From Mesorhizobium sp. J428 (GTDB lineage Bacteria; Pseudomonadota; Alphaproteobacteria; Rhizobiales; Rhizobiaceae), in the NCBI RefSeq assembly GCF_024699925.1, contig NZ_JAJOMX010000001.1:496001-560000 (forward strand): a DNA stretch of 64,000 nt, in the 5' to 3' direction. The notes beneath the pieces are model-generated. The model searched no databases, was not told where the DNA came from, and was given only the letters and a program-made list of their open reading frames with translations. This document shows positions 43,687-59,818 of this stretch, in pieces. Both the position numbers and the translations under genes were made by a program. How positions within the stretch are numbered: position 1 is the stretch's first letter; each line of letters begins with the position of its first letter.

Positions 43687-43697
43687 GAAAACTCTCG

Positions 43698-44168
43698 TCA
43701 GGCTGTGAGTGTGCCGCGAACCAGGCGATAGGCGCGCACGAATGCGACGATCGACGCGAAGGCGGCGCCTGCGGCCGCTGCCGCGAGGAACAGCCACACC
43801 GAAAGTTGAAGCTCGTTTGTGACTTCGAAACTTGCCCTGCTGCGCAGGACCTTCAGAGTGAGCATGTAAGCCATCGTGCCCAGAAACAGGCCCGATACGA
43901 CTGCGGCGCACACATCGATGCGGAGCCGGTTCAACGCATTTGCCGCATCCCAGAGGATATCGACATTGATGTGCCTGCCCGCATAGGTCGCGCTGGCGAT
44001 GCCCCAGAAGATGGCTACGCCCTGCGCGTAGCCGGAGAGGGAGTAGGCATCCGGAACCTGCACTCCGAACAGGTAGCGCAGAGATGCCTCGATGAAGGTC
44101 AGCGCGACGACACACCCTAGCAGTAGACCGGACACGACGTCGATGGCGGAGAGAAAACGTGAAAGCAT
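43698..44168 (-). CDS. TRAP transporter small permease subunit, DctQ
   Basis: 156 residues with four hydrophobic helices (starting around residues 10, 48, 88 and 125), the DctQ topology; FWGIASATYAGRHINVDILW is the conserved central loop. Partner of DctM. Lies between the dctP and dctM genes, which are typical neighbours. Confidence 0.88.
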   Translation of the reverse strand: MLSRFLSAIDVVSGLLLGCVVALTFIEASLRYLFGVQVPDAYSLSGYAQGVAIFWGIASATYAGRHINVDILWDAANALNRLRIDVCAAVVSGLFLGTMAYMLTLKVLRSRASFEVTNELQLSVWLFLAAAAAGAAFASIVAFVRAYRLVRGTLTA

Positions 44169-44193
44169 GGCGTATGCCCGTCGCGCTGGAAGA

Positions 44194-45201
44194 TCAGAAG
44201 CCGGCGCCGTATTCGGCGAGCTTCTTCTTCAGTTCATCGAGCAGCTTGTTGCCGTCGAGCTTGTAGCGGGACACCGCCGCTACCGCCTTCTCGCGAATGC
44301 TGTCGCCGGCCGCGACCCACTGCTTGGTTTCTTCCTCGCTCGGCTTGTAGACGACATGACCGGGATCGGCGATCAGATCCGCCTTGGCCTTGAGCTCGCG
44401 CTCCGCCCACGGCGTCGACAACTTCTCGGACCATTCTGGCGTGCAGTGCGAGTCCACCGCCGCCTTCTGCGCATCCGTCAGCCCGTCATAGAACGGCTTG
44501 TTGAGAACGAAGCCCTGCGTGCCGATATAGATCGGCAGGTCGACGTGATATTTGAGGCTGTCCTTGGAGTTGATGACGGACAGGTCCCAGGGGAAGGTGA
44601 TGCCGTCGACCACGCCACGCTCGACGAGCTCGCGCACCTCCGGAAGGGCCGCCTGGACGGTCGTCGCCCCCTGCCCCGTGACATAGGCCACCGAGGTGGC
44701 GCCGGCCACGCGGAGCTTCTTTCCGTTCATGTCGGCAGGCGCCTTCACCTGCTCCGACTTCATGTGCAGCGTCGCCGGATGATGCATGGCCATGACACAG
44801 AGCTTGACCTCGGGCATCTCCAGATCGGCGTAGTTGAGATACCATTCGTGCAGCGCGCGAACGCCCTTCGTGCTGTTGCTGAAGAGGAACGGCACCTCGT
44901 CGAGCAGGAAGATGGGGAACTGGCCACTGTTGTAGGCCGGCGCGACCATCGTCATCTCGGCGATACCGTCGCGCGCCATGTCGTATTGATCGACAGCCTT
45001 GCCCAATTGCTCGGCCGGGAAGAGCGTGACCTTGATCGTGCCGCCAGACGCTTCCGTCAGCGACTTTCCCCATTCCTCGAAGGTCTTGACCAGAACATGG
45101 GTCGGCGGAATCCAGAATGAGACCCGGATCTCCTTCTCTTGCGCGTAAGCAGGCGTGATCATCGCGGCGGCAACTAGGCCGGCCACCAAAGCGCTTCTCA
45201 T
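44194..45201 (-). CDS. TRAP transporter solute-binding protein, DctP type
   Basis: 335 residues from ATG 45201 (GGGAGG 10 bp upstream). Signal peptide MRSALVAGLVAAAMITPAYA, then the DctP domain with EEWGKSLTEASGGTIKV, EQLGKAVDQYDMARDGIAEM and EVRELVERGVVDGITFPWDL. Periplasmic capture of an organic acid. First gene of the ten-gene leftward operon (dctP-dctQ-dctM-dehydrogenase-ALDH-GMC-dctP-SnoaL-SDR-CoA ligase). A near-perfect palindrome (TTAACATATTAA) lies about 45 bp upstream. Confidence 0.9.
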   Translation of the reverse strand: MRSALVAGLVAAAMITPAYAQEKEIRVSFWIPPTHVLVKTFEEWGKSLTEASGGTIKVTLFPAEQLGKAVDQYDMARDGIAEMTMVAPAYNSGQFPIFLLDEVPFLFSNSTKGVRALHEWYLNYADLEMPEVKLCVMAMHHPATLHMKSEQVKAPADMNGKKLRVAGATSVAYVTGQGATTVQAALPEVRELVERGVVDGITFPWDLSVINSKDSLKYHVDLPIYIGTQGFVLNKPFYDGLTDAQKAAVDSHCTPEWSEKLSTPWAERELKAKADLIADPGHVVYKPSEEETKQWVAAGDSIREKAVAAVSRYKLDGNKLLDELKKKLAEYGAGF

Positions 45202-45673
45202 GTGTAGAATCCTCCCGTTCGCAACGGCTGGGGCCGTCACTGATTTAACATATTAAGTAATTTTTGCGCTGTCAAACCGGAAAGGCCGGCATCCTACCCA
45301 TTTGGAACGACCAGAAACGCTGGGACAGAGCCCATAGAGGCACGTTCTGCACAGATCCGGAGACAGACCTGTCGGATACGCCAACTCGTTAACATGCTGT
45401 CTTTCCGAGGGTCGATTGGGATGCAGCAACTCCCGAATACGGATCGCAGGGAGCGGACCTGGCTGCGATCTCCAAAACGGCCCTCAGCCGCGCAGCGTTG
45501 CCGAGGATCAAGTTCGGAACGGCAACCGGCCTTATAGGACCAGGTGCCGCGCCACTGAGTTGGCTTCGAAGGCGACGTTTATCTGCACTGTCGCACGCGC
45601 TCCCCCCGCCATGTACTCGTCGACAACATCAGGATGGCCCGGCGCGGTCGGCGGGGATGACTTCGATCTGGCG
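45202..45673. other. Intergenic region, no supported gene
   Basis: This 472-bp gap separates the TRAP operon start from the IclR stop; both are leftward. The only features I can point to are the palindrome TTAACATATTAA at 45245-45256 and CCAACTCGTTAA at 45381-45392. Small open frames here have neither ribosome sites nor recognisable domains. It is by far the longest non-coding stretch in the window. Confidence 0.5.
45245..45256. promoter_or_regulatory. Putative operator TTAACNNGTTAA, site 8
   Basis: TTAACATATTAA, one mismatch to consensus, about 44 bp upstream of the dctP ATG at 45201. A further copy, CCAACTCGTTAA, is at 45381-45392. Placed to control the ten-gene TRAP operon. Confidence 0.55.
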
Positions 45674-46447
45674 CTACTTGCCCAGCAGCGTTTCCACCGG
45701 TTGTTTCAACAGCCGCAGCGCTGCCGAGACGCGCTCGCGCTGGGCGGCGAAGCGGCTAGTGGGGATCGGCACCGAGACGGCATAGCAGTCGCCCTTCAGG
45801 TCGACGAACCCGAAGCCGACGGCTGAGATACCCAGCGTGTGCTCATCCTCGTCAAAGGCAAGGCCGCTTCGGCGTATGTCGGCCAGCATCGCGATCACCT
45901 TCTTCGCCTTCTCGGGGCCGACCTCTGCGCTGACCAGTTGCAGCGCGGCGTCATCGTCCATAAGCGCCAGGCATGAGCGGCCATTGGCGGTCGTGGCGAG
46001 CGGAAAGGCCTCTCCCACCGCCGAGATCGCGCGCAGACGGTGCGAGCCGGACACCTGATCGATGAAGACCATCCTGCCGTCGCGCAGGACGGAGAGATCG
46101 ACCGTTTCCTCGGTCTGCGCCGAAAGACGCTGGAGCAGCGGCCGCATCAGATCGACTACATTGAATCGCGCGGCCTCCGACAGCGCGTGAAGTTCGGGGC
46201 CGAGCCTTATCCCGGTGCCGCCGCTGGAACTGATGACCAGGCGCTCCGCCAGCAGAGCACGGACGATGCGCTGCACCGTCGAGCGCGGCAGACCGACGCG
46301 CTCGGCAATCTGGCCTAGGCTCATGCCAGACGAACCCTTCAAGGCACGCAAGACAGCCGCTGCGCGGGCGATGACCTGAATGCCGTTTCGATCCTCGGCA
46401 GGCGAGGCGCTGGAAGTTCGACGAGATATCACCTTTGTCCTCTTCAT
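45674..46447 (-). CDS. IclR family transcriptional regulator
   Basis: 257 residues. N-terminal winged helix (VIARAAAVLRALKGSSGMSL, GQIAERVGLPRSTVQRIVRA, residues ~22-65) and a C-terminal IclR effector domain (FIDQVSGSHRLRAISAVGEA, TTANGRSCLALMDDDAALQL, DEDEHTLGISAVGFGFVD). The ATG at 46447 is preferred because an inverted repeat at 46456-46473 lies immediately before it and the fold starts soon after. Divergent from the cyclase-cupin-PhlG-Liv operon, which it probably controls in response to an aromatic or keto-acid effector. Confidence 0.9.
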   Translation of the reverse strand: MKRTKVISRRTSSASPAEDRNGIQVIARAAAVLRALKGSSGMSLGQIAERVGLPRSTVQRIVRALLAERLVISSSGGTGIRLGPELHALSEAARFNVVDLMRPLLQRLSAQTEETVDLSVLRDGRMVFIDQVSGSHRLRAISAVGEAFPLATTANGRSCLALMDDDAALQLVSAEVGPEKAKKVIAMLADIRRSGLAFDEDEHTLGISAVGFGFVDLKGDCYAVSVPIPTSRFAAQRERVSAALRLLKQPVETLLGK

Positions 46448-46455
46448 CCCGCAAT

Positions 46456-46473
46456 GCGGTACATATTGACCGC
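46456..46473. promoter_or_regulatory. Inverted repeat at the IclR promoter (candidate IclR operator)
   Basis: GCGGT at 46456-46460 and ACCGC at 46469-46473, 8 bp apart; with flanking bases AATGCGGT/ACCGCAAT, 7 of 8 arm positions pair. It sits 9 bp upstream of the iclR ATG and about 110 bp before the divergent cyclase gene, so one protein bound here could affect both directions. Confidence 0.55.
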
Positions 46474-46583
46474 AATACAAGTCAGGCATAGCGTTTGGCA
46501 ATACATGCTCTGGGAGGAGCATCGGAAAATTTCATGCGTGCTGCACCGCCCGGAGACACCCGGGCGAACGGAGAGAATTGTCC

Positions 46584-47423
46584 ATGTCGATAACTGTTCG
46601 CGGAATCGAGTTTCAGTCCAACCTCGACAACCCGATGGGCATCGAGTTCTACAATCTGTCGCACCGTTTCGGCTTCCAGTGCCCGAACTGGCCCTATTTC
46701 CGCGACGTGCGCATCGAGCGTATGCACTACATGGCCAAGTCTGGCGTGCTGTCGCAGACGATCACGACGACCATGCACGTCACCACCCACATCGATGCAC
46801 CGGCGCATGTGGTTCAGGGCACGCCTTTCATCGACGAGGTGCCGCTACCGCATTTCTTCGGGTCTGGCATCGTAGTGTCGCTGCCAAAGAAGAAGTGGGA
46901 GCCCATCACAGGCGACGATCTCGAGAAGGCCTGCGGCAAGGCGATCCGCAAGAACGACGTGCTGATCATCAACACAGGCTGGCACAAGGTATACGAGGAC
47001 GGTGACTATTTCGCCTATTGCCCCGGCTTCGTGCCGTCGGCCGCCGACTGGATGATCGAAAAGGGCGTCAAGGTGGTCGGTCACGACACGCAGGCCAACG
47101 ACCATCCCCTGGCCACAGCGATCGGCCCGCAGCGCAACGGGCCACTGCTGCCTCACTTGGCCGCAGAATATAAGGAATGGTCGGGCGGCCGCGACTGGCA
47201 GGACGATTTCCCCGAATGGGAGCCGGTTCACCAGAAAATCTTCAAGGCCGGCATTCTCGGCATCGAAAATGTCGGCGGCGATCTCGACGCTGTCACGGGA
47301 AAGCGCTGCACCTTTGCCTTCTTCCCGATCAACTGGGACCGCGGCGACGGCTGTATCATCCGCCTGGTCGCAATGATCGACCGAGGCCAGAACTACCGTA
47401 TCGAGAAGGGCGAGGCCTTCTGA
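46584..47423 (+). CDS. Cyclase-family metal-dependent hydrolase (kynurenine formamidase/isatin hydrolase type)
   Basis: 279 residues. The cyclase-family metal motif HxxxHxDxPxH is visible as HVTTHIDAPAH, with H65, H69, D71 and H75 as probable metal ligands. GHDTQANDHPLA near residue 165 and NVGGDLDAVTGKR near 230 contribute the rest of the site. The family hydrolyses amides, lactams or, in dihydrophloroglucinol cyclohydrolase-like members, a cyclic 1,3-diketone. First gene of the rightward operon; ATG 46584 after GGAGAGA. A ring-opening role fits the downstream PhlG-like and BKACE enzymes (inference). Confidence 0.82.
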   Translation: MSITVRGIEFQSNLDNPMGIEFYNLSHRFGFQCPNWPYFRDVRIERMHYMAKSGVLSQTITTTMHVTTHIDAPAHVVQGTPFIDEVPLPHFFGSGIVVSLPKKKWEPITGDDLEKACGKAIRKNDVLIINTGWHKVYEDGDYFAYCPGFVPSAADWMIEKGVKVVGHDTQANDHPLATAIGPQRNGPLLPHLAAEYKEWSGGRDWQDDFPEWEPVHQKIFKAGILGIENVGGDLDAVTGKRCTFAFFPINWDRGDGCIIRLVAMIDRGQNYRIEKGEAF

Positions 47424-47773
47424 TGCTGACCAGACGCTTTGCCGACGCCAAGCCCTACGACGCGCCGAACCACCGCGGAGTCGTCGGGCTGAGGCTCCAG
47501 GGCTTCGAGCCGGGCGGACCGCGGAACCAGTGGGTCGGCCTCTCGCAATTCCTCCCGGGAGGTGGTGCCGGGCCGGACTCCACGCCGTTCGAGAAGGTCT
47601 ATGTCGTGCTTGATGGCGAGATGACCGTCATCGCGGACGGCGTGGAGACCGTGCTCGGACCGCTCGATTCCTGCACCGTCGCCCCGCACGAGTTACGCGA
47701 GATCGTCAACCGCGCCAACCGCGTCTGCACCATGCTGGTCATCATCCCCTATCCGCCGGGACATATATCGTGA
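47423..47773 (+). CDS. Small cupin-domain protein
   Basis: 116 residues, single cupin barrel: FLPGGGAGPDSTPFEKVYVV and LDGEMTVIADGVETVLGPLD, with the second motif APHELREIVNRANR. The His residues of the usual metal triad are only partly present in the first motif, where PDSTPFEK replaces the H-x-H pattern, so catalysis is uncertain. It overlaps the cyclase stop (TGATG) and the next start (GTGA), so it is translationally coupled to both. May be a dioxygenase-like, isomerase or binding protein. Confidence 0.78.
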   Translation: MLTRRFADAKPYDAPNHRGVVGLRLQGFEPGGPRNQWVGLSQFLPGGGAGPDSTPFEKVYVVLDGEMTVIADGVETVLGPLDSCTVAPHELREIVNRANRVCTMLVIIPYPPGHIS

Positions 47774-48562
47774 GCGCGCTGAAGAACCCGCTTTCGCTGT
47801 TCGACATCGCCGGCAGGGTGGCGATCGTCACCGGCGCGTCTGGCGCATTCGGGGTCGTGGCGGCCGAGACGCTCGCCGGCGCCGGCGCCAAGCTCGCGCT
47901 GGTCGCCGGCAATGCCGCAGCGCTCGCCGAGACGGCCGCGGCCTGCGGTGAAGCTGAAACGCTCTGCCTCAACGCTCGGCCGTGGGACGAAGCAGCCTGC
48001 GACAAGATCGTCGTCGAAACGGTCGCGCACTTCGGCCGCGTGGACATTCTGGTGGTCGCCTCCGGCAAGAACGACGTTGCGAAAATCAACGACATGGCGC
48101 CCGGCCGCTTCCTTGACGTGATGGATGCGAACGTCACCCAGTCCTGGCTGATGGCGCGCGCCGCAACCAGACAGATGCTGGCACAGGGCGACGGCGGCAA
48201 GATCGTGCTGATGTCATCGGCACGCGGCCTGCTGGGCCACCCGGCCGGGGTACACCGCATATTGCGCGTCAAAGTCTGCAGTCGACGGCCTCACCAGGGC
48301 CTTGGGCTGCGAGCTCGGTGCGAGCGGCATCACGGTCAACGCCATCGCGCCGACCGTCTTCCGCTCGCCGCTGACGGCGTGGATGTTCGAGGACACCGAC
48401 AACGCCCGCGCCGTGCGCAACGGCTTCCTCGCCCGCGTGCCGAAGGGCCGGCTCGGCGAACCCGAAGATCTAGCCGGTCCCCTCCTCTTCCTCGCCTCCC
48501 GTGCCTCGGACTTCTACACGGGCCACATCCTCTACGCCGACGGAGGATACACGTCCGGATGA
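47770..48562 (+). pseudogene. Short-chain dehydrogenase/reductase (frameshifted)
   Basis: About 264 residues. TGASGAFGVVAAETLAGAGA is the NADP-site near residue 22; the frame runs to SSARGLLGHPAG and breaks in a run of four G (48247-48250). Removing one G gives GYTAYCASKSAVDGLTRALG with the catalytic Tyr-x3-Lys, then TVNAIAPTVFRSPLT and the C-terminal ADGGYTSG. It resembles NADPH-dependent ketoreductases; its place beside a cyclase-family hydrolase and PhlG-like enzymes fits a phloroglucinol-reductase-type role (inference). GTG start at 47770 overlapping the cupin stop. Confidence 0.82.
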
Positions 48563-49486
48563 GCACGCGGCACAAAACCATCGCGGTCGTCGGCGCCGGC
48601 CTGATGGGGCATGGCATCGCTCAGGTCTTCGCGTCCGCCGGACACTCGGTACGGGTCTACGATTCCCATGCGGAGTCGCTCGCCACCTTGCGGTCGCGCA
48701 TCCGGGCCAATCTCGATCAGCTCGGAATGGAGAACGGCGCGGAAGATCGGGTCAGCGACCATGTCGACCTGGCCGAAACCGTGCAAAACGCCGAGATCGT
48801 CATCGAGGCGGCGCCCGAGAAGCTCGAACTGAAACGCGCCCTCTTCGCCGACCTAAGTACGCCTGTCGCGCCCGGACGCACTCCTGGCCTCGAACACGTC
48901 CGTCATCCCGATCACGCAAATCGCCGAGGGGCTGAAAACGAGCGATCGGATACTCGGCACGCATTGGTGGAATCCGCCCTTCCTCGTACCACTGGTCGAG
49001 GTTGTCGGCACGGCAACGACGGATCCGAAGGCAATCGATCGGATGATCACGCTGCTTCGCGCGGTCGGCAAGGAGCCGGTGCATGTCAAAAAGGACGTGC
49101 CCGGCTTCGTAGGCAACCGCCTCCAGCACGCACTATGGCGCGAGGCCATCGCCATCGTCGCGGATGGCATCGCAGATGCCGAGACAGTCGACGCGGTCGT
49201 CAAGGCGAGCTTCGGGCGCCGGCTTGCCGTGTTAGGCCCGATCGAGAACGCCGATCTCGTCGGCACCGACCTCACGCTCGACATCCATAAGGTGGTGCTG
49301 CCGCATCTCGATCGTTCGCCCTCGCCCTCGCCTTATCTGTCGAAACTCGTGAACGAGAACCGGCTCGGGATGAAGACGGGGGAAGGTTTCCGCGCCTGGA
49401 CGCCGGCAGAGGCCGCGGCGCTGCGCGCCCGGGTATTCGACCACTTGAAGAAGTCCATCTCTGGTCTGGGAGGATCGAATGCATAA
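48559..49486 (+). pseudogene. 3-hydroxyacyl-CoA dehydrogenase-family protein (frameshifted)
   Basis: About 309 residues. Rossmann motif GAGLMGHGIAQVFASAG near residue 12 and IVIEAAPEKLELKRALFADL near 85; the frame is lost near 48858-48880 and resumes as ALLASNTSVIPITQIAEGL, GTHWWNPPFLVPLVEVVG, HVKKDVPGFVGNRLQHALW and a normal C-terminus. Length fits one extra base. The family oxidises L-3-hydroxy acids or their CoA esters; in this operon a free 3-hydroxy-5-oxo acid is an attractive substrate (inference). The last codons overlap the next gene by 8 bp. Confidence 0.82.
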
Positions 49487-50759
49487 TCCATTTCGGAAGG
49501 TGCTGCCGCGGAGGACGTTTCTGGCAGGGTTGACCGCTACGCTCGCAGCGCCGGCTGTGTTGCGTGTCTCGAAATCGTTTGCCTCGAGCGAGCCGGTGCG
49601 CATCGGCTTTGTGACCCCGCAAACCGGGCCGCTTGCCTTCTTCGGCGAACCCGATCCGTTCATCTTGAAGCGGTTCGAAAAGCTGATTGCTGCCGGCATC
49701 GCGACGAAGGACGTTACCCGTCCGGTCGAATTCGTCATCAAGGACAGTCAATCCAGCGCCAACCGCGCGTCGGAAGTAGCGAGCCAGCTCATCCTGGACG
49801 ACAATGTCGATCTGCTGATCGCTGCCGGCGGCCCGGACACCGTCAATCCCGTAGCCGACCAGGCAGAGGTGAACGGCGTGCCGATGGTCGCCAATTCCTG
49901 CCCCTGGCAGCCCTTCGTCTTCGGACGCAACAGCACGCCGGAGAAAGGCTTCGACTGGAGTTGGCTGTTCGCCTTCGGGCTTGAGGACGTCATCGCCGCC
50001 TACTTGGCGCTCTGGCAGACCATCGAGACGAACAAGAAGGTTGGCATGATGTTCGCCAATGATGCGGACGGAAATGCCTGGGGCAACGCCGAATTCGGCT
50101 TTCCAGCGGCGCTAGCCAAAGCGGGTTACCAGGGTGTGGATGCCGGGCGCTATACGCCCATGGCCGACGACTTCACGGCGCAGATCACCGCGTTCAAGAA
50201 AGCTGGCGTTGACATTGTCGTGGCGACGATGGTCCCTCCGGAATTCTTCGCCTTCTGGACTCAGGCGGCTCAGCAGGGGTTCAAGCCTAAGGTCGCATCC
50301 ATCGGCAAGACGCTGCTCCTGCCCAAGACGCTGCAGACGATCGGCGGTATCGGCAACGGCCTCTCGGCCGAGGTGAGCTGGCATCGCACCTATCCCTACA
50401 GATCGGCGGCCACCGGCGAAACGCCCGAAAGCCTCTGTTCGGCCTGGGAGCAGGAGACGGGGCGACAGTGGATACAATTGCTCGGATCCAAACACGCGCT
50501 GTTCGAGATCGCGCTGGACGTGCTGGCGCGCTCCGGCGACCCGTCAGACCGTGACGCGGTGGTAGGGGCTATCAAGGCGACCGACCATGAGACCGTGGCC
50601 GGGCGCGTGAAATGGGAAGGCTCGCCTATCAAGAACGTGACCAAGATGCCGATTGTCGGCGGCCAGTGGATGAAGTCGGGCGACAAGTTCGAACTCATCA
50701 TTCGTGCGAACCCGACGAAGGAACCGATCGCCGCATCGGGCGGCCTGGTCGCCTTGTGA
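49479..50759 (+). CDS. ABC transporter substrate-binding protein, branched-chain amino acid type (copy 1)
   Basis: 426 residues. The N-terminus carries a twin-arginine-like signal, RRTFLAGLTATLAAPAVL, followed by a periplasmic-binding domain of the HAAT/Peripla_BP_6 type: RIGFVTPQTGPLAFFGEPD, KDSQSSANRASEVASQLI, DTVNPVADQAEVNGVP. It delivers substrate to LivHMGF encoded 2.7 kb downstream. About half its residues match copy 2 at 52124-53413. The two flank two PhlG-like hydrolase genes symmetrically. Substrate probably a phenolic or acylphenol. Confidence 0.87.
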   Translation: MHNPFRKVLPRRTFLAGLTATLAAPAVLRVSKSFASSEPVRIGFVTPQTGPLAFFGEPDPFILKRFEKLIAAGIATKDVTRPVEFVIKDSQSSANRASEVASQLILDDNVDLLIAAGGPDTVNPVADQAEVNGVPMVANSCPWQPFVFGRNSTPEKGFDWSWLFAFGLEDVIAAYLALWQTIETNKKVGMMFANDADGNAWGNAEFGFPAALAKAGYQGVDAGRYTPMADDFTAQITAFKKAGVDIVVATMVPPEFFAFWTQAAQQGFKPKVASIGKTLLLPKTLQTIGGIGNGLSAEVSWHRTYPYRSAATGETPESLCSAWEQETGRQWIQLLGSKHALFEIALDVLARSGDPSDRDAVVGAIKATDHETVAGRVKWEGSPIKNVTKMPIVGGQWMKSGDKFELIIRANPTKEPIAASGGLVAL

Positions 50760-50767
50760 ACAGCTCC

Positions 50768-51430
50768 ATGCGATTCGAGGACGCCAACCAACTCTTTCAA
50801 CCCGGCTATCTGCCGGTTGAGTCCGGGATCATCGATTTCGAGGACGGCTACCGTACCGTCTGCGCGTTGACGCGCATGCCGCGCTGCCGCGCCAAAATGG
50901 TGGCTTGGTGGTTCGGCTGGCTAGGCGGCACCGAGCAATACAAGATCTGGCATCCTCGCGATCATGTGTTCAGCGATTGGGAAAACCGCACGCCTGGCAG
51001 CTACATCGGCGCAAGTCATCTCGTGCACGAATATATGGCGGGAAGCGACGGCCCGCTGATGAAGCTCAGGATCAATTTCCGCGACCCTTCCGAGTTCCTG
51101 GACGCCGACGCGTATGATGACTTCGACGGCGTCGCCATCTGCGCGCGGACAGGCTCACTGGAGTCTCCGGTGGACCATGGCCGCACGATCCATTTCGTTC
51201 GCAACACATCCTTCGGCTGCGAGATGCGTTCGCGCTTCTTCCTCGGCGATTTGGCGAGCCGGGATGCGACCGCTCCCTTCTCGAAGGAGAAAGCGGCGCA
51301 ATTGCGTGCCGAGCGCGTTACCCACGAGCTTGCGAGACGCCTGCATCAGCACGCTACGGAGGAGATGGGCTACCTGGCCGAATTTCTGCCTGTCCTCTAT
51401 CGCCAGGCCACCGGCGACACGGAGCTCTAG
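50768..51430 (+). CDS. PhlG-family C-C hydrolase (DAPG hydrolase/phloretin hydrolase type), copy 1
   Basis: 220 residues (ATG 50768; GTG 50756, overlapping the upstream stop, is an alternative). The family pattern is clear: WWFGWLGGTEQYKIWHP (residues ~47-63), ASHLVHEYM (~82-90) and LHQHATEEMGYLAEFLP (~192-208). Candidate zinc ligands are H62, E88, H195 and E199; the last pair keeps the H-x3-E spacing of PhlG. Such enzymes hydrolyse the aryl-acyl C-C bond of 2,4-diacetylphloroglucinol or phloretin. Shorter than PhlG (~295 residues). Immediately followed by a close paralogue. Confidence 0.72.
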   Translation: MRFEDANQLFQPGYLPVESGIIDFEDGYRTVCALTRMPRCRAKMVAWWFGWLGGTEQYKIWHPRDHVFSDWENRTPGSYIGASHLVHEYMAGSDGPLMKLRINFRDPSEFLDADAYDDFDGVAICARTGSLESPVDHGRTIHFVRNTSFGCEMRSRFFLGDLASRDATAPFSKEKAAQLRAERVTHELARRLHQHATEEMGYLAEFLPVLYRQATGDTEL

Positions 51431-51432
51431 AG

Positions 51433-52095
51433 ATGCGCTTCGAAGCTATCAACGATCTGCTCGACCGAGGCTACCTGCCGCTGGAGTCCGGCGTCGCTGC
51501 CTATGACGACGGGTTCAGAACCGTCTGCGCGTTGACCCGCATGCCGGGCTCGCGCGCCAAGATGGTGGACTGGTGGTTCGGCTGGCTGGGTGGAACGGAG
51601 CAATACAAGCTCTGGCACCCCGACGATCATCTGTTCAGCAACTGGGAGGAGCGGCAGGCGGGCACGTACATCGGTTCCAGCCATCTGGTACACGAGTATC
51701 TCGGCGGTGCAGATGGCCCGGTCTACCGGCTGCGCATCAATTTCCGCGACCCCACGGAGTTTTTCGACGCGGCACGCTATCGAGGGTTTGGCGGTGTCGC
51801 GGTCTGCGCCAAGATTGGCTCGCTGGACGCGCCCATCAATCTCGGCCGCATGACACACTTCGTGCGGGACACCGACTATGGCTGCGAGATGCGCTCGCGC
51901 TTCTTCCTCGGCCACGTCGAGAGCCGCGACCCGGCGAAGCCGTTCACGCAAGAGGAAACGGACACAATCCGCCGCACGGCGGTAACTGAAGAACTGGCGC
52001 GCCGGCTGCATCGGCACGCTACGGAGGAGATGGGTTACCTGGCCGAGTTCCTGCCGATCCTCTACCGCCAGTATAGCGGTGACACCTCTTACTAA
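51433..52095 (+). CDS. PhlG-family C-C hydrolase (DAPG hydrolase/phloretin hydrolase type), copy 2
   Basis: 220 residues, about two-thirds identical by eye to copy 1 and separated from it by 2 bp. The same motifs are present: WWFGWLGGTEQYKLWHP, SSHLVHEYLGG and LHRHATEEMGYLAEFLP, so all four candidate zinc ligands are kept and neither copy is decaying. The tandem pair may be two substrate-specific hydrolases or two subunits. Its direct neighbour is the second binding protein, giving a binding protein-hydrolase-hydrolase-binding protein layout. Confidence 0.72.
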   Translation: MRFEAINDLLDRGYLPLESGVAAYDDGFRTVCALTRMPGSRAKMVDWWFGWLGGTEQYKLWHPDDHLFSNWEERQAGTYIGSSHLVHEYLGGADGPVYRLRINFRDPTEFFDAARYRGFGGVAVCAKIGSLDAPINLGRMTHFVRDTDYGCEMRSRFFLGHVESRDPAKPFTQEETDTIRRTAVTEELARRLHRHATEEMGYLAEFLPILYRQYSGDTSY

Positions 52096-52123
52096 GACCA
52101 ATCGTCATCTCTGGGAGGAGAAC

Positions 52124-53413
52124 ATGACTTCTGGACGCAATACCCTGCCCGCCCTGTCACGTCGGGCCTTCATGGCCACGGCGGCAACCGCACTCGCCAT
52201 GCCTGCGACATTGCGCGGCACACGCGCCTATGCCGACACGCCTACGTTGAAGGTCGGTCACGTCAGCCCGCGCACCGGTCCGCTCGCCGGCTTCGCTGAA
52301 GCCGACGATCACATCCTCGGCGGCATCTCCAAGGCGTTTTCCGCTGGCATCGAGAATAACGGCAAAAGCTGGGCGGTCGAGATCATCTCCAAGGACAGCC
52401 AGTCCAATCCCAATCGTGCGTCCGAAGTTGCGTCGGAGCTGATCCTCAAGGACGAGGTGGACATCATCGTCGCCGCCTCGACGCCCGACACCGTCAATCC
52501 CGTCTCCGATCAGGCCGAGGTAAACGGTACGCCGTGCATCACCACCGACTGCCCGTGGCAGCCCTATTTCTTCGGGCGCAACGGCGTGCCGGATAAGGGT
52601 TTCGAATCGACCTACCATTTCTTCTGGGGACTGGAAGACGTCATCGCCTCGTTCCTTGCGCTTTGGAATCACGACGGGGTGGCCAAGAAGGTGGGCGGCC
52701 TGTTCCCGAACGACGCCGACGGCAACGCCTGGGGCGACGCCGAACGCGGATTTCCCAAGCCGCTCGAAGGCGCCGGCTTCAAGCTCACCGACCCCGGCCG
52801 CTACCAACCGCTCTCCGACAATTTCACGGCGCAGATTTCCGCCTTCAAGGATGCCGGCGCTGAGATCGTGACCGGCAATATGATTCCGCCGGACTTCACG
52901 AGTTTCTGGAGCCAGGCAGGCCAGCAGGGCTTCAAGCCGAAGATAGTGACGATCGGCAAGGCGCTGCTGTTCCCCTCTGTCATCGCCTCACTCGGTGAGC
53001 GCGGCGTCGGGCTGTCGTCGGAAATCTGGTGGACGCCAAACCACCCCTTCAAGTCGAGCCTGACCGGCGAGAGCGCGCGTCAACTCGCCGACGACTATAC
53101 CGCCGCGACCGAACGTCCCTGGACGCAGCCGATCGGCTTCAAGCACGCATTGTTCGAGGTGGTTGCCGACGTAGTCAGGCGCAGTGCCGATCTCGAGGAT
53201 CCGGCTGCCATCGTCGAGGCGATCCGGGCCACCGCGATGGAGACGATCGTCGGACCGGTGGACTGGTCGAAGGGTCCGGTCAAGAACGTGACCAAGACCC
53301 CTCTAGTCGCCGGCCAGTGGCAAAAGCAGGGCGACAAGGTGGACCTCGTGGTGACGACCAACGCCAACGCGCCGCAGATACCGACAGGCGGTGACCTTAT
53401 CCTTCTGGCGTGA
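52124..53413 (+). CDS. ABC transporter substrate-binding protein, branched-chain amino acid type (copy 2)
   Basis: 429 residues from ATG 52124 after GGGAGGAG. The Tat-like signal reads LSRRAFMATAATALAMPATL. The mature domain parallels copy 1: KVGHVSPRTGPLAGFAEAD, KDSQSNPNRASEVASELI, DTVNPVSDQAEVNGTP, FPNDADGNAWGDAERGF. Two binding proteins serving one LivHMGF set suggests uptake of two related ligands, or of a substrate and its deacylated form. Confidence 0.87.
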   Translation: MTSGRNTLPALSRRAFMATAATALAMPATLRGTRAYADTPTLKVGHVSPRTGPLAGFAEADDHILGGISKAFSAGIENNGKSWAVEIISKDSQSNPNRASEVASELILKDEVDIIVAASTPDTVNPVSDQAEVNGTPCITTDCPWQPYFFGRNGVPDKGFESTYHFFWGLEDVIASFLALWNHDGVAKKVGGLFPNDADGNAWGDAERGFPKPLEGAGFKLTDPGRYQPLSDNFTAQISAFKDAGAEIVTGNMIPPDFTSFWSQAGQQGFKPKIVTIGKALLFPSVIASLGERGVGLSSEIWWTPNHPFKSSLTGESARQLADDYTAATERPWTQPIGFKHALFEVVADVVRRSADLEDPAAIVEAIRATAMETIVGPVDWSKGPVKNVTKTPLVAGQWQKQGDKVDLVVTTNANAPQIPTGGDLILLA

Positions 53414-53464
53414 CGAAGCTGGCCGGGCGTTTGCGTATCCGGCCCTAGCAACGGGAAATTCCGC

Positions 53465-54199
53465 GTGTCCATTCTCGCCGCCACGGACTTGAGCAAGCGC
53501 TATGGCGCCCTACAGGTCACCGACAGAGTGTCGCTCTCGCTCGCGCGCGGCGAAGCGCTAGGCATTATCGGCCCGAACGGCGCCGGCAAGACGACGCTTT
53601 TCAACCTGATTGCCGGTACGGTGAATCCGGACGCCGGCAAGATCGTCTTCGACGAACAGGACGTGACGAGCCTGCCGGCCCGGGCGCGGTGCCATCTCGG
53701 CATCGCCCGTTCTTTCCAGATCCCGCACCCGTTCACGGGCATGACGACCTATGAGAACGTCCTGGTCGGCGCGACCTTCGGGCGACGTGCCACGGAGCGT
53801 GCCAGCGAGACCCGCGCCGTCGCGGTGCTGGAACTGACGGGCTTGAAGCGCAAGGCGAATACCTATGCCGGCGATCTGACGCTGCTCGACCGCAAGCGGC
53901 TCGAACTGGCACGCGCGCTGGCCAGCGACCCGACGCTGCTGCTGCTTGATGAAATTGCCGGCGGGCTGACGGAACCGGAATGCCGGGAACTTGTCGAGAC
54001 GATCAACGGCATCCGTGCCGAGGGCGTGTCAATCATCTGGATAGAGCACGTGGTGCACGCGCTGCTCGCGGTCGTCGACCGCATCGCCGTCATCGACTTT
54101 GGGAAGAAAATCGCCGAGGGCGACCCACGCGCGGTCATGGCAAGTCCGGAAGTGGCGGCGATCTACATGGGCATAGAGGGGGAGACAGCACATGGCTGA
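53465..54199 (+). CDS. ABC transporter ATP-binding protein, LivG type
   Basis: 244 residues, GTG start at 53465. Walker A GPNGAGKTT near residue 38, the LivG-specific insertion with RSFQIPHPFTGMTTYENVLV near 82, a signature region GDLTLLDRKRLELARAL in which LSGG is replaced by LTLLD, and Walker B LLLLDEIAGGLTE. The degenerate signature is common in LivG-type subunits of this branch. Overlaps the LivF-like gene by 8 bp. Confidence 0.9.
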   Translation: MSILAATDLSKRYGALQVTDRVSLSLARGEALGIIGPNGAGKTTLFNLIAGTVNPDAGKIVFDEQDVTSLPARARCHLGIARSFQIPHPFTGMTTYENVLVGATFGRRATERASETRAVAVLELTGLKRKANTYAGDLTLLDRKRLELARALASDPTLLLLDEIAGGLTEPECRELVETINGIRAEGVSIIWIEHVVHALLAVVDRIAVIDFGKKIAEGDPRAVMASPEVAAIYMGIEGETAHG

Positions 54200-54902
54200 G
54201 CCGATCCTCGCGCTGAGCGGCCTCAAAGCCGGCTATGGCGACTTCCAGGCGCTGTTTGGCATCGACCTGCAGGTTCAGCCCGGCGAGACGTTGGCGCTGA
54301 TCGGCGCCAACGGCGCGGGCAAGACCACGTTGCTCAAGGCCGTCACCGGCCTTGTGCCGTGCAAACCGGACATGGTGCGCTTCGCCGACACCGCTATCGG
54401 CGGCATGCGGCCGGACCGTATCGCGGCGTTGGGGGTCGGCCTCGTGCCGGAGGGCCGCCGCCTGTTTCGTTCGCTGAGTGTCGAAGAAAATCTGATCATC
54501 GGCGGTGAGCGGGCGCTGCCCGGCCCGTGGTCGCTGGAGAAAGTCTACGGCCTGTTCCCGATCCTGAAGGAGAAGCGGAAGAACCCTGGCACCGCGCTGT
54601 CGGGCGGACAGCAGCAGATGGTCGCAATCGGCCGTGCGCTGATGGCAAACCCCAGACTGATCCTGTTCGACGAGATTTCGCTCGGCCTCGCTCCGGTTGT
54701 CATCCGCGACATCTACGCCGTGCTTCCGGCCATTGTCGCAACCGGCGTTTCGGCCATCATGGTCGAGCAGGACGTGAGCCGCGCGCTTGCCGTGGCACAG
54801 CGTTTCGCCTGTCTTCAGGAGGGGCGGGTGTCGCTCGCCGGGCGGCCAGACGAGCATGATCGCGCGGCCGTCACCGCCGCCTATTTTGGGACGGCTCACT
54901 GA
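54192..54902 (+). CDS. ABC transporter ATP-binding protein, LivF type
   Basis: 236 residues. Walker A GANGAGKTTLLKAVTG near residue 38, LivF-typical LGVGLVPEGRRLFRSLSVEE near 80, signature LSGGQQQMVAIGRAL near 137 and Walker B LILFDEISLGLAP. Second ATPase of the importer, overlapping the permease gene start by 1 bp. Confidence 0.92.
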   Translation: MAEPILALSGLKAGYGDFQALFGIDLQVQPGETLALIGANGAGKTTLLKAVTGLVPCKPDMVRFADTAIGGMRPDRIAALGVGLVPEGRRLFRSLSVEENLIIGGERALPGPWSLEKVYGLFPILKEKRKNPGTALSGGQQQMVAIGRALMANPRLILFDEISLGLAPVVIRDIYAVLPAIVATGVSAIMVEQDVSRALAVAQRFACLQEGRVSLAGRPDEHDRAAVTAAYFGTAH

Positions 54903-55765
54903 TGGAATGGGTCAATGCAATCCTGCAAGGCGTGTTGATAGGCGGACTCTATGCGCTGTTTGCCGCGGGCCTCTCGCTGATCTTCGGCGTCATGCGCCTG
55001 GTTAATATCGCGCATGGCGACATGATTGTCGCGGCCGCCTATCTGGCGCTGGTGGTCGTGCAGGCAACGGGTCTCCACCCGCTCGCCTCGGCGGTGATCG
55101 TGGTGCCGCTGATGGCCGTGCTCGGCTACGCCATGCAACGGCTGCTGCTTAATCCGACTATCGGCCAAGACCTGTTGTCGCCGCTGCTCGTCACATTCGG
55201 CATTTCCGTCATTCTTCAGAACGGTCTTCTTGTCGCTTTCACGGCCGATAGCCGCCGACTGGCGGCGGGCAGCATCGAGACGGCGAGCTTCCATCTGGCG
55301 CCGGGCATCAGTCTCGGCGTGCTGCCGCTGGTGATATTCGCGGCCTCGGTGCTGGTCATCCTCGGCCTTGAGCTCATCTTCTACCGTACCAGTCTCGGCC
55401 GTGCTTTCCGTGCGACCTCCGACGATCCCGAAATAGCGCAGCTGATGAAGCTGGACCGCAACCATGTGTTCGGCATGGCGATGGCGCTTTCCGCTGCGGT
55501 GGTGGCCATTGCCGGCATTTTCCTCGCCATCCGTACCAATTTCGATCCGTCCGCCGGACCGGCGCGCCTGATCTTCGGTTTCGAGGCCGTCATCATCGGC
55601 GGACTCGGCAATCTCTGGGGTACGCTGGCCGGTGGTGTCGTCCTCGGGGTCGCACAGGCGATCGGCGCACAGATTTCGCCCGGCTGGCAAATCCTCGCCG
55701 GTCATCTCGTCTTTTTCCTGGTGCTGGCGCTGAAGCCGCGCGGCCTGTTCCCGAGGATGGACTAA
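54902..55765 (+). CDS. ABC transporter permease, LivH type
   Basis: 287 residues with about eight hydrophobic segments. Landmark sequence GVLIGGLYALFAAGLSLIFG at the N-terminus and VMRLVNIAHGDMIVAAAYLA near 30, then FGFEAVIIGGLGNLWGTLAG near 222, typical of LivH. The start at 54902 overlaps the LivF stop by one base; the stop overlaps the LivM start by one base. Confidence 0.92.
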   Translation: MEWVNAILQGVLIGGLYALFAAGLSLIFGVMRLVNIAHGDMIVAAAYLALVVVQATGLHPLASAVIVVPLMAVLGYAMQRLLLNPTIGQDLLSPLLVTFGISVILQNGLLVAFTADSRRLAAGSIETASFHLAPGISLGVLPLVIFAASVLVILGLELIFYRTSLGRAFRATSDDPEIAQLMKLDRNHVFGMAMALSAAVVAIAGIFLAIRTNFDPSAGPARLIFGFEAVIIGGLGNLWGTLAGGVVLGVAQAIGAQISPGWQILAGHLVFFLVLALKPRGLFPRMD

Positions 55766-56775
55766 TGGCGGCCGCTTTTCAGATCGAGCGTTCCACCCGA
55801 ACGAGCCGCGTCACCGCGCTGGTCTCCCTGGTTCTGCTGGTCGTGTTGATCGCAGCACCCTGGTGGGCCGGGCGGGCCAATATGCGGCTGCTCGGCGAAA
55901 TCTACTCCTTCGTTGCGCTAGCGACGCTGTGGAACCTCATGGCCGGCTATGCCGGGCTCGTCTCCGTGGGACAGCAAGCCTTTGTCGGCTTCGGCGGATA
56001 TGCGCTGTTCGCATTTGCCATGTTCCTCGGCGTGCACCCGCTCGTCGCCGTGCCGCTCGCCGGTGTGGCAGGTGCACTCATCGCGCTGCCGATCGCGCCG
56101 CTGCTCTTTCGCCTGCAGGGCGCCTATTTCGCCATCGGCACATGGGTGCTGGCGGAGGTGTTCCGCCTCTCCTTTGCACAGGTTTCGTCGCTCGGCGGCG
56201 GCTCGGGCACCAGCCTGCCCGCCGGCGTGGTTACCGGCATGGCGGCCGACCGGGCGCTGCGGGAGATGGCAATCTACTGGACGGCGCTTGCCATCGCCGT
56301 CGTAGCGGTGGCTTACGTGATCGCGCTGCTGCGCTCCCGCGCCGGTCTGGCGCTCACCGCGCTGCGCGACAGCGAAATCGCCTCCGAGAGCCTTGGCATC
56401 GACATCTGGCGCACCAAGCTGACTGTCTACGTCACAGTGGCTGGGCTGACCGCGATGACTGGCGCGATGATCTTCCTGCAGAAGCTGCGCATCTCGCCGG
56501 ACGCGGCCTTCAGCGTGAATGACTGGACCGCCTACGTCATCTTCATTGCAGTGATCGGCGGCATCGGCACGATCGAGGGACCGATCGTCGGCACCATCCT
56601 GTTCTTCCTGCTGCGTGAGACGTTGGCCGATCTCGGCACCACCTACCTGATGGTGCTGGGCGCTGTCGCCATCCTCGTCATGCTGCGCGCGCCCAAGGGC
56701 TTGTGGGGATGGGTGTCGCAACGCACGGGCGTGACGCTGGTGCCGGTGCGACGGCGTGTCGTGTTCCGTGACTGA
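55765..56775 (+). CDS. ABC transporter permease, LivM type
   Basis: 336 residues. A cytoplasmic N-terminus of about 18 residues, then membrane helices, LWNLMAGYAGLVSVGQQAF near residue 52 (the LivM signature), ALRDSEIASESLGIDIWRTK near 195 and VIGGIGTIEGPIVGTILFFL near 265. Completes the LivGFHM set; 18 bp before the keto acid cleavage enzyme gene. Confidence 0.92.
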   Translation: MAAAFQIERSTRTSRVTALVSLVLLVVLIAAPWWAGRANMRLLGEIYSFVALATLWNLMAGYAGLVSVGQQAFVGFGGYALFAFAMFLGVHPLVAVPLAGVAGALIALPIAPLLFRLQGAYFAIGTWVLAEVFRLSFAQVSSLGGGSGTSLPAGVVTGMAADRALREMAIYWTALAIAVVAVAYVIALLRSRAGLALTALRDSEIASESLGIDIWRTKLTVYVTVAGLTAMTGAMIFLQKLRISPDAAFSVNDWTAYVIFIAVIGGIGTIEGPIVGTILFFLLRETLADLGTTYLMVLGAVAILVMLRAPKGLWGWVSQRTGVTLVPVRRRVVFRD

Positions 56776-56793
56776 TTTCTGGAGAAACGAGAC

Positions 56794-57732
56794 ATGGTCG
56801 ACCTGTCAAAGAAAGTCATCATCACCTGTGCCGTAACTGGCGGTATACATACGCCAACCATGTCGGATGCGCTGCCGTTCACGCCAGACGACATCGCCCG
56901 CCAGTCCATCGAAGCGGCGGAGGCGGGGGCTGCCATCCTGCACCTGCATGCCCGCGATCCGAAAGACGGCCGCCCGACTCCGGACCCGGCCGTGTTCATG
57001 CAGTTTCTGCCGCGCATCAAGCAGGCGACGGATGCCGTAATCAACGTCACGACCGGCGGAGGACTGAACATGACGGTCGAGCAACGGCTGGCCGCGCCGC
57101 TTCAGGCAAAGCCCGAAATGTGCTCGCTCAACATGGGCTCGATGAACTTCGGCATCTTTCCGCTGGCCGAACGCTATTCCTCCTGGAAGTACGAGTGGGA
57201 GGAGCCCTATCTGCGCGGCACGGACGATTTCATCTTCCGCAACACCTTCCGCGACATCGAACGCATTTTGAAGCTGCTGGGCGACCAGCACGGCACCAAG
57301 TTCGAGCATGAATGCTACGACGTCGGGCATCTCTACAACCTCGCGCATTTCGTCGACCGCCGCCTGGTGAAGCCGCCCTTCTTCGTACAGATGATCTTCG
57401 GCATCCTCGGCGGCATTGGACCGGACATGGACAATCTGATGTTCATGAAGCGCACCGCCGACCGCCTGTTCGGCACCGATTACAGATGGTCGGTGCTGGC
57501 CGCCGGGCGCTTCCAGATACCCTTCGCCACGCAGGCGGCAATGCTCGGCGGCTCGGTGCGCGTTGGGCTGGAGGACTCGCTCTATATCGGCCGCGGCAGG
57601 CTGGCCGGTTCAAATGCCGAACAGGTGGCCAAGATCCGCACCATTCTGACCGAACTGGGCCACGAGGTCGCCACACCCGCCGAGGCACGGAAGATTCTGG
57701 GGCTCAAGGGCGGTGACCTTGTGGGATTTTGA
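56794..57732 (+). CDS. Beta-keto acid cleavage enzyme (BKACE, DUF849 family)
   Basis: 312 residues, TIM barrel. The zinc-binding pair is H50 and H52 in AAILHLHARDPKDGRPTPD, a third ligand Glu lies in VRVGLEDSLYIGRGRLAGSN near residue 250, and INVTTGGGLNMTVEQRLA near residue 86 is a family signature. BKACE enzymes take a beta-keto acid and acetyl-CoA and give acetoacetate plus a new acyl-CoA. As last gene of the operon it fits a terminal thiolytic step on 3,5-dioxohexanoate or a similar product of ring opening (inference). Confidence 0.85.
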   Translation: MVDLSKKVIITCAVTGGIHTPTMSDALPFTPDDIARQSIEAAEAGAAILHLHARDPKDGRPTPDPAVFMQFLPRIKQATDAVINVTTGGGLNMTVEQRLAAPLQAKPEMCSLNMGSMNFGIFPLAERYSSWKYEWEEPYLRGTDDFIFRNTFRDIERILKLLGDQHGTKFEHECYDVGHLYNLAHFVDRRLVKPPFFVQMIFGILGGIGPDMDNLMFMKRTADRLFGTDYRWSVLAAGRFQIPFATQAAMLGGSVRVGLEDSLYIGRGRLAGSNAEQVAKIRTILTELGHEVATPAEARKILGLKGGDLVGF

Positions 57733-57829: not shown

Positions 57830-59035
57830 TCAGTTTGCGATGAAACTCACCGGCAGATGTTCGTAACCTCTGAGGACATTGTTCATCGTCAGGACAGGAT
57901 GACCCACCTCGATCCGTTTCACCCGCCTCACCATCGAGGTGAGAATGCTGCGGATCTCAAGCCTGGCCAACTGCATCCCCGCGCATGAATGAATGCCGTG
58001 CCCAAAGCCGACGTGATCGGTCAGCACCCGCTTCACGTCGAAGGTTTCGGGCTTTTCCCAACGCCGCTCGTCCCGGTTGGCCGACGCATAGAGCATCAGC
58101 ACCCGCGAGCCTTTCGGGATCAGAGTATCACCGACCAACTTCTCGCTGGCGAGATAGCGGGTAAACCCCCTGATCGGCGACTCCACCCTGACCGCCTCGT
58201 TGATCGCATTGGGTATCAGGCTGGGATCGTCGCGGATCATCTGCCACTGCTCGGGATTGGTCCCCAAAAGATACAAAAGGTGACCGGTCGCGAAGATCGT
58301 CGTATCGAGACTGGGCCCAAGGTAATCCCGCATCAGCATCTGCACCTGCTCGGGACGAATGAGGCCCTTGTCGGCCGCCTCATACAGCATGGACACCCAG
58401 CCGCCCGGCCGCACCTTGTCCCGCGTGGCTTCGTTGACTGTGTAAGCCCGCATCTCCATGACGACGGCGAGCGCATCCTCGCCGCGTTTATTGGCACCGC
58501 CGAGCATGTCGAACACCGCACTCGCCCAGCGCAGCATGTTCTCACGCCCGTGTTCCGGCATTCCGACCAGCTCGGAGACGATGGAAACGGGAAGGTATTG
58601 CGCAAGGTCCGTCATGCCGTCGAAGGTGCCGCGCCGGACCAGCCGGTCGACGAGATCCTCCGCCGTTGCCTCGATGCGGCCTTTGACTTCGTTCAGCCCG
58701 CGCGGACTCAACGGCGCGGCGACGATGCGGCGCAGATGATCGTGAAGCGGCGGATCGGAGGCGAGCAGGTTCCCGGGTGCAATCCTGTTGGCAGCCTCGT
58801 TTCCCGATACGCCATTTCCGGATGTGAAAGTCTCGTGGTCTGCGAGGCCTGCGCGCACATCCGCGTGGCGACCGATCGCCCACAGCCCGTTTGCAGGTAG
58901 CCAGACCGCAGCTCCCGCATCGCGAATACGCTGGTAGTGCGGGTAGGGATCGCGAATGACCTCGTCGGAATAGATGTCAACATCGTAGACGGACGGGTTG
59001 TCCAACCGGCTCGCAGATTTCGTAGAAGCCGACAT
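57830..59035 (-). CDS. Cytochrome P450, CYP199-like
   Basis: 401 residues from ATG 59035 after GAGGGAG. N-terminus SVYDVDIYSDEVIRDPYPHY, I-helix YLGPSLDTTIFATGHLLYLL (the PSLDTT form I know from CYP199A enzymes), E-x2-R in NEAVRVESPIRGFTRY, and haem loop FGHGIHSCAG with the axial Cys at about residue 351. CYP199A enzymes O-demethylate para-methoxybenzoate or cinnamate with a PuxB-type [2Fe-2S] ferredoxin, like the ferredoxin encoded just upstream here. In this cluster it would generate a phenol for the dioxygenase downstream in the pathway. Confidence 0.9.
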   Translation of the reverse strand: MSASTKSASRLDNPSVYDVDIYSDEVIRDPYPHYQRIRDAGAAVWLPANGLWAIGRHADVRAGLADHETFTSGNGVSGNEAANRIAPGNLLASDPPLHDHLRRIVAAPLSPRGLNEVKGRIEATAEDLVDRLVRRGTFDGMTDLAQYLPVSIVSELVGMPEHGRENMLRWASAVFDMLGGANKRGEDALAVVMEMRAYTVNEATRDKVRPGGWVSMLYEAADKGLIRPEQVQMLMRDYLGPSLDTTIFATGHLLYLLGTNPEQWQMIRDDPSLIPNAINEAVRVESPIRGFTRYLASEKLVGDTLIPKGSRVLMLYASANRDERRWEKPETFDVKRVLTDHVGFGHGIHSCAGMQLARLEIRSILTSMVRRVKRIEVGHPVLTMNNVLRGYEHLPVSFIAN

Positions 59036-59129
59036 CGTTTCTCCCTCTCGCGCACACTGCGAACCAAGCAACCTTCATTGCCGTGTCTCGCGCAACATCT
59101 CGATCTGAGGTGTTCGACCTGTGGACAGG

Positions 59130-59225
59130 TTACGGCGGCGCATCCGCAAGCGCTTGGGCAACGTCTGGATTGATCGGCGTGTCGAAGGAATTCAGGATGT
59201 CTGCGATGACGACCTTGCGACCCAT
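59130..59225 (-). CDS. Small ORF of 31 codons between ferredoxin and P450 genes
   Basis: Runs from ATG 59225 to a TAA at 59130-59132, in the 200-bp gap between the ferredoxin stop and the P450 start, in the direction of the operon. The peptide begins MGRKVVIADILNSFDTPINP and has no family I recognise. It could be a true small protein, a leader peptide, or a remnant of a deleted gene. There is no strong ribosome site. Confidence 0.3.
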   Translation of the reverse strand: MGRKVVIADILNSFDTPINPDVAQALADAPP

Positions 59226-59235
59226 CGTCGGCCTC

Positions 59236-59559
59236 TCAATACTGCGAAGCCGGCACGGTGACTTCCAGCCCGTCAAGCGTGTCGCTCACCTTGATCTGGC
59301 AGCCGAGCCGGCTGTTCTCCATCCGCGGGGCCCCCGTCCCTTCAAGAAGTTCGTCTTCGAACTCCGACATTGGCGGAATCCGCTCGAGCCAGTCCGGCGA
59401 GACATAGACGTGGCAGGTCGCACACATGGCCGACCCTCCGCACTCCGCGACGATGCCGTGAACCCCGTTGTTGCGCGCGATCTCCATGACGGAATCGCCA
59501 TCCGCTCCGGCTACTGATGTGACCGATCCGTCCTGGCTCCTGAAATGCACCTGGATCAT
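59236..59559 (-). CDS. [2Fe-2S] ferredoxin (P450 partner)
   Basis: 107 residues. Ligands C-x5-C-x2-C in ECGGSAMCATCHVYVSPDW near residues 40-49, fourth Cys in RLGCQIKVSDTLDGLE near residue 87. Same length and pattern as the ferredoxin at 6164-6487. Likely donor for the CYP199-like P450 encoded downstream. Confidence 0.92.
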   Translation of the reverse strand: MIQVHFRSQDGSVTSVAGADGDSVMEIARNNGVHGIVAECGGSAMCATCHVYVSPDWLERIPPMSEFEDELLEGTGAPRMENSRLGCQIKVSDTLDGLEVTVPASQY

Positions 59560-59605
59560 CGTGGCTCCTCAATGGCGTTCCTGTTCCCGACAGCTTTGAC
59601 CGGGA

Positions 59606-59818
59606 CATCGTCAGAACGATCTTTCCGTTGTGGGTGTTGGTTTCGAGCAGGCGGTGTGCCTCTCAGATGTCCGGCCTGTTGGCCCCCACTGCCTGGGCCT
59701 TGATCAATACCTCCCCTGGACCAGGCACGGGCGTGTCGGCCGTCCCGACATAGAGGAGATCCGGACCGCCCGGAGCATCGAACCGGATTGCCCGCATGGT
59801 CACGGCTTCAGCCTTCAT
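59606..59818 (-). pseudogene. Internally deleted quinone oxidoreductase remnant
   Basis: Read leftward from ATG 59818 (or 59797), the sequence encodes an MDR-family N-terminus, MRAIRFDAPGGPDLLYVG then PVPGPGEVLIKAQAVGANRP, and stops at a TGA after DI. The same frame continues directly with EAHRLLETNTHNGKIVLTM, the C-terminal signature of quinone oxidoreductases. About 50 N-terminal and 20 C-terminal residues are present while the roughly 250 residues between are missing, with the junction at the stop. A simple internal deletion explains this. It lies between the FAH gene, whose 3' end it overlaps, and the ferredoxin gene. Confidence 0.7.

Follow-up and report, generated by a model that had tools for sequence, protein, structure and literature searches.

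A conserved operon predicted to take up and degrade phloroglucinol and acylated phloroglucinols in Mesorhizobium sp. J428

We analysed a 64,000-nt stretch (the window, whose positions are used throughout) of the 5.88 Mb genome of Mesorhizobium sp. J428, and found that positions 46584-57732 of the forward strand hold a single operon that probably serves the catabolism of phloroglucinol and acylated phloroglucinols in this Mesorhizobium-group alphaproteobacterium. The genes follow each other in the order cyclase-family hydrolase, cupin, SDR, 3HCDH-type dehydrogenase (HAD), periplasmic binding protein SBP1, PhlG1, PhlG2, binding protein SBP2, two ATPases, two permeases and BKACE, with a divergent IclR gene upstream. 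The SDR, cyclase, HAD and BKACE encoded together are the gene content by which a PGR-DPGC-TfD-TAL cluster, the reductive route of phloroglucinol degradation, is defined.

In the proposed route, SBP1 and SBP2 would capture two related phenols and deliver both to one Liv-type channel, and PhlG1 and PhlG2 would remove the acyl (or dihydrocinnamoyl) side chain, releasing phloroglucinol and an acid. The SDR would then convert phloroglucinol to dihydrophloroglucinol, the cyclase would open the ring to 3-hydroxy-5-oxohexanoate, the HAD would oxidise this to triacetate, and the BKACE would turn triacetate and acetyl-CoA into acetoacetate and acetoacetyl-CoA. The IclR protein would act as the regulator of the operon.

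Operon structure

Profile searches of the open reading frames (ORFs) of the window recovered every gene that an earlier, sequence-only reading had named for the operon; the order given there needed correction, in that SBP1 precedes the PhlG pair. Neighbouring operon genes overlap or lie no more than 51 bases apart. The features are the following:

45674-46522 (-): IclR-type regulator, divergent (PF01614 104.5 bits, PF09339 43.6 bits); translation may begin at an internal ATG near 46447
46455-46510 (+): block ahead of the operon that is conserved among 8 aligned upstream regions and contains TTGACC (at 46466) and recurring words similar to GCAATAC; possible promoter and operator for IclR
46584-47423 (+): cyclase-family hydrolase, proposed dihydrophloroglucinol cyclohydrolase (PF04199 111.7 bits)
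47423-47773 (+): cupin (PF07883 32.2 bits)
47770-48562 (+): SDR, proposed phloroglucinol reductase, one frame break at ~48240-48260 (pieces match PF00106/PF13561)
48559-49486 (+): HAD, proposed 3-hydroxy-5-oxohexanoate dehydrogenase, one frame break at ~48850-48885 (PF02737 1-98 and 109-179, then PF00725)
49479-50759 (+): SBP1, periplasmic binding protein co-inherited with PhlG (PF13458 134.5 bits)
50768-51430 (+): PhlG1, PhlG-like C-C hydrolase (PF18089 154.6 bits; PDB matches 5xe5, 5xey, 3hwp)
51433-52095 (+): PhlG2, PhlG-like C-C hydrolase (PF18089 150.8 bits)
52079-53413 (+): SBP2, periplasmic binding protein of the core operon (PF13458 131.4 bits)
53465-54199 (+): LivG-type ATPase (PF00005 95.6 bits)
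54192-54902 (+): LivF-type ATPase (PF00005 90.2 bits)
54902-55765 (+): LivH-type permease (PF02653 94.5 bits)
55765-56775 (+): LivM-type permease (PF02653 112 bits)
56794-57732 (+): BKACE, proposed triacetate (3,5-dioxohexanoate):acetyl-CoA transferase (PF05853; NF053538 540.4 bits, cut-off 430)

Identity of the core enzymes

The BKACE exceeded the curated cut-off of NF053538 (3,5-dioxohexanoate:acetyl-CoA acetone transferase), which was also passed by 6 out of 7 BKACEs of other clusters. The closest solved structure to an intact orthologue of the SDR was 5g4k (172 bits; the next solved SDR, 135), and profile comparison of the same orthologue gave 240.6 for 5g4k vs 201.4. The entries 5g4k and 5g4l are titled phloroglucinol reductase and were 36-37% identical to the SDR in structural comparison; the loop PTVFRSxLTxWMF is common to the SDR and the clostridial phloroglucinol reductase, and PTVFRS was present in all 80 rows of the SDR alignment.

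The main text of the 2023 mBio paper on Clostridium scatologenes (PMC10470551) gives residue signatures for the four enzymes: TR(S/N) for NADPH in PGR; a Trp where KCE has a Glu in TAL; a Trp and a Tyr two positions apart, replacing the Ile/Leu of isatin hydrolase, in DPGC; and, in TfD, catalytic Ser, His and Asn that are kept while the CoA-binding Lys56 and Asn221 of HBD are lost. Judged by pattern and position, the cyclase W-x-Y (W36 and Y38, within PNWPYF) was found in 83 out of 83 rows. It was also present in the cyclases of L102, L108 and L109, and in none of the five non-cluster or different-cluster cyclases compared (L111a, L111b, L103, L011 and L012). The Ser, His and Asn of the HAD catalytic motif were each kept in 78 out of 78 rows, and the HBD residues Lys56 and Asn221 were not seen in the HAD alignment with 9fbd, in which residue numbering is unmapped.

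The BKACE score, the SDR neighbour 5g4k and the cyclase W-x-Y support the reductive phloroglucinol route that the sequence-only reading had put forward. That reading had named membership of kynurenine formamidases or lysine-fermentation BKACEs as evidence to the contrary, and both candidates were rejected below their cut-offs: the cyclase scored 44.5 bits as arylformamidase/kynurenine formamidase (TIGR03035), far under 223, and the BKACE 236.4 bits as lysine-fermentation KCE, under 382.

Several observations weigh against the route. Judged by fold alone, the SDR is on a par with many other SDRs. An Arg in the column that aligns with the 5g4k TGRN stretch was found in 0 out of 80 SDR rows, which have Gly or Ser instead; this column would correspond, from the alignment, to the Arg of the PGR motif TR(S/N). 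The position of the TAL Trp, verified via 2y7d and L108, was Ile in 58 out of 59 BKACE rows and Gly in the remaining row, and the BKACE of the Mycobacterium cluster (L108) also has Ile without the TAL Trp. No cupin takes part in the clostridial route, and the SDR of L102 lacks the PGR loop. Finally, the PhlG-like proteins scored 59 bits against the PhlG equivalog NF047887 (cut-off 600), and we rejected them as 2,4-diacetylphloroglucinol (DAPG) hydrolase PhlG proper.

Four of these points (no clostridial NADPH-motif Arg, no TAL Trp, a conserved cupin foreign to the clostridial route, and the low PhlG equivalog score) would also fit a different substrate, i.e. another meta-hydroxylated ring such as a methylated phloroglucinol or a resorcinol-type polyketide, from which the PhlG-like enzymes would remove some acyl group, phloroglucinol itself not being the natural substrate. 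We find this improbable, as 3,5-dioxohexanoate, for which the BKACE equivalog is specific, derives from an unsubstituted ring, and the closest solved relative of the SDR is a phloroglucinol reductase. Phloroglucinol remains our preferred ring substrate.

Conservation across genomes

A cyclase search of genome contigs confirmed 147 relatives, and the best 80 of these 147 were taken as loci with 10-kb flanks. The best 80 belonged to Rhizobiales, Rhodobacteraceae, SAR116 and others and were 84-96% identical, with a mean column identity of 91% in 12 sampled sequences. In Rhizobiales, Rhodobacteraceae and SAR116 alike, the core operon was strongly conserved: the full set of ten core genes (cyclase, cupin, SDR, HAD, SBP2, the four transporter genes and BKACE) was present in 60 out of 81 other distinct loci (the best 80 and L094), and collinear on one strand in 55 of the 81, so the grouping is not due to chance. 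The other 21 loci were without at least one core gene, partly because of contig or 10-kb flank ends, and 63 of the 81 had cyclase, SDR, HAD, BKACE and cupin inside the fetched stretch. Two loci (L033 and L045) were divided between the strands, with cyclase-HAD-BKACE on one and cupin-SDR-transporter on the other.

The cupin was conserved beside the cyclase, including in distant clusters. In particular, L102, which comes from a different class within the phylum, had a cupin together with cyclase, HAD, BKACE and an SDR, and plasmids of Aminobacter, Novosphingobium and Mycobacterium riyadhense carried cyclase, cupin, SDR and BKACE together. The cyclase was found at E <= 1e-60 in 3 out of 7 genomes of the genus and at E <= 1e-20 in 8 out of 398 genomes drawn from the phylum, the source genome being included in both counts.

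Some loci showed features of their own. One genome of the same genus (G005) had two cyclase copies (G005:C1:2307881-2308717 and 3225163-3225999), and perhaps two such operons. On the M. riyadhense plasmid, the cupin beside cyclase and BKACE (L108 9840-10190) passed NF050094 "beta-D-galactosidase" (204.9 vs 175 bits), a name that may mislead given its location in a phloroglucinol-type cluster. A plasmid of Rhizobium sp. ACO-34A (L111 7153-10526) had two adjacent cyclase-family genes without W-x-Y, 39% and 47.5% identical to that of the window, adjoined by an SDR with the loop PTVFRSKLTAWMW; this set is perhaps a related route for another phenol.

PhlG-like pair and binding proteins

Both PhlG-like proteins scored far above the PF18089 cut-off of 22.7 (DAPG_hydrolase family: PhlG, phloretin hydrolase), and the predicted fold of PhlG2 matched phloretin hydrolase and PhlG. 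The profile for both proteins and the fold for PhlG2 agree with the earlier description of the pair as PhlG-like C-C hydrolases. Residues H66, E88, H195 and E199 were invariant in 12 rows, and these His and Glu residues are candidate metal ligands. From its family, the pair would be expected to act on an acylated substrate.

We counted PhlG-like and binding protein genes in 82 distinct loci (80 fetched by cyclase, L094 and the window; L093, a copy of L018, was dropped). A PhlG-like gene was present in 12 of the 82, accompanied by two binding proteins in 10 loci and by one in the other two (L030 and L088). The 70 loci without PhlG had one binding protein (62 loci) or none (8 loci), and never two. 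In a quick tree, a branch with SH-aLRT 100 separated the ten SBP1 sequences from the others, although L062 sits on a long branch; the SBP2 rows were interspersed with the single binding proteins of other loci. We infer that SBP1 is an acylphloroglucinol receptor, and the cargo of the importer would be phenols of this kind.

More tentatively, two receptors could share one channel, SBP1 binding acylphloroglucinols and SBP2 phloroglucinol. A plug-in module of PhlG and SBP1 might then have upgraded an old phloroglucinol operon for plant dihydrochalcones or a neighbour's diacetylphloroglucinol, with the cupin providing an extra step (e.g. keto-enol tautomerisation before reduction) and the reductase having a cofactor site unlike the clostridial one. 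We put this scenario forward as speculation that may well prove wrong.

PhlG matches at E <= 1e-30 were found in 9 out of 385 genomes of the class, the source genome included. The 7 more distant PhlG relatives inspected in the class all had no core enzyme gene or SBP relative within ~17 kb, and one of them had a weak ABC-ATPase match nearby. This separation from the core genes, and the reported action of Pseudomonas PhlG on the antibiotic DAPG, are consistent with a pair that detoxifies a competitor's acylphloroglucinol antibiotic and has no nutritional role, ring breakdown being secondary. We judge such a function quite unlikely here, as the PhlG genes lie inside a catabolic operon and co-occur with an importer binding protein; moreover, in another family of the order (L104 and L135), PhlG comes after BKACE and is followed by a different Liv-type set, with the same core enzymes adjoining. 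We favour catabolic use of the acylphloroglucinols.

Frame breaks in the SDR and HAD genes

The SDR and HAD genes of this assembly each contain a single frame break; the two pieces of each gene are read in different frames and correspond to consecutive portions of one Pfam model. With the L093 copy included, 80 out of 81 SDR rows with both halves were whole, that of the window being the only split one, and 78 out of 80 HAD rows were whole, all but those of the window and L065. Intact orthologues occur, for example, in Mesorhizobium jarvisii and Corticibacterium. No close second copy was found in the source genome, where the best other SDR and HAD were 39% and 36% identical, respectively. Both the breaks and this lack of copies count against a working route in this strain. 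They could mean that the operon is a decaying remnant, with SDR and HAD as pseudogenes and the route idle; single breaks in two adjacent genes, no spare copies and a split SDR unique to the window would all agree with this. On the other side, the remaining operon genes are open and keep a coding-type composition, and an unrelated AMP-binding gene (PF00501; 34250-35790, -) is likewise split over two overlapping frames, matching the profile at 2-284 and then at 284-384 plus the C-terminal domain, which suggests indel errors in the assembly. Decay is possible in our view, though we doubt it, and we continue to treat the operon as a probable catabolic unit.

The flanks were also catabolic in content. 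Downstream (57830-62755) lie genes for a cytochrome P450, an FAA hydrolase, a glyoxalase/BphC-type protein and a TRAP binding protein, and upstream (37308-45240, -) TRAP transporter genes, an aldehyde dehydrogenase and a 3-hydroxyisobutyrate-dehydrogenase-like gene.

Significance and comparison with known systems

The operon would link the cleavage of acylphloroglucinols (phloretin, DAPG-type compounds) to full reductive ring opening and a dedicated importer in alphaproteobacteria. If so, flavonoid A-rings would be recycled by such bacteria, and for some of them a biocontrol antibiotic might serve as food. With SBP1 paired to PhlG, receptor specificity can be tested directly, and the cupin may carry out a further step.

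The four-enzyme route PGR-DPGC-TfD-TAL was proven in C. scatologenes, and the text of that study reports such clusters in marine alpha- and gammaproteobacteria, Mesorhizobium loti and Bradyrhizobium, as well as Mycobacterium clusters that include phloretin hydrolase (PMC10470551). The core route in proteobacteria is therefore already in print, as far as that text goes, and its examples may include loci described here. The operon shares with the C. scatologenes cluster the same four enzyme families, the cyclase W-x-Y and the HAD catalytic residues. It differs in having a conserved cupin, a Liv-type ABC importer, the PhlG pair and a second binding protein, in lacking the PGR-motif Arg and the TAL Trp, and in a BKACE of another subgroup. 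The transporter named in the text of PMC10470551 is of the major-family type, whereas that of the operon is a Liv-type ABC importer; neither a cupin nor an ABC transporter is mentioned in its main text.

Among solved structures, BKACE15 (PDB 8rio, 8rip, 9hnf; PMC11961710) is a strong relative of the BKACE (E 9.5e-113). For BKACE15, 3,5-dioxohexanoate is among the substrates confirmed, and the genes around it suggest a part in aromatic degradation (PMC11961710); the activity of the BKACE in the window is predicted. Structural alignments with the Mycobacterium abscessus phloretin hydrolase (5xe5, 5xey) and Pseudomonas PhlG (3hwp) gave 27-32% identity, and the PhlG-like proteins of the operon are ~60 N-terminal residues shorter. 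The Clostridium sp. phloroglucinol reductase (5g4k, 5g4l) is the nearest solved relative of the SDR and has the same loop, but its TGRN Arg is replaced by Gly/Ser in every SDR row.

For the importer and the SBP1-PhlG pairing, no description was found in the literature searched, which covers few subscription journals. Overall, the operon is likely to work like the clostridial route, sharing its defining gene content but not two of its residue signatures, and we file it as a variant. Relative to the published route, what looks new is the layout, in which a conserved cupin is combined with an importer of the Liv type and with a PhlG module that brings its own second binding protein.

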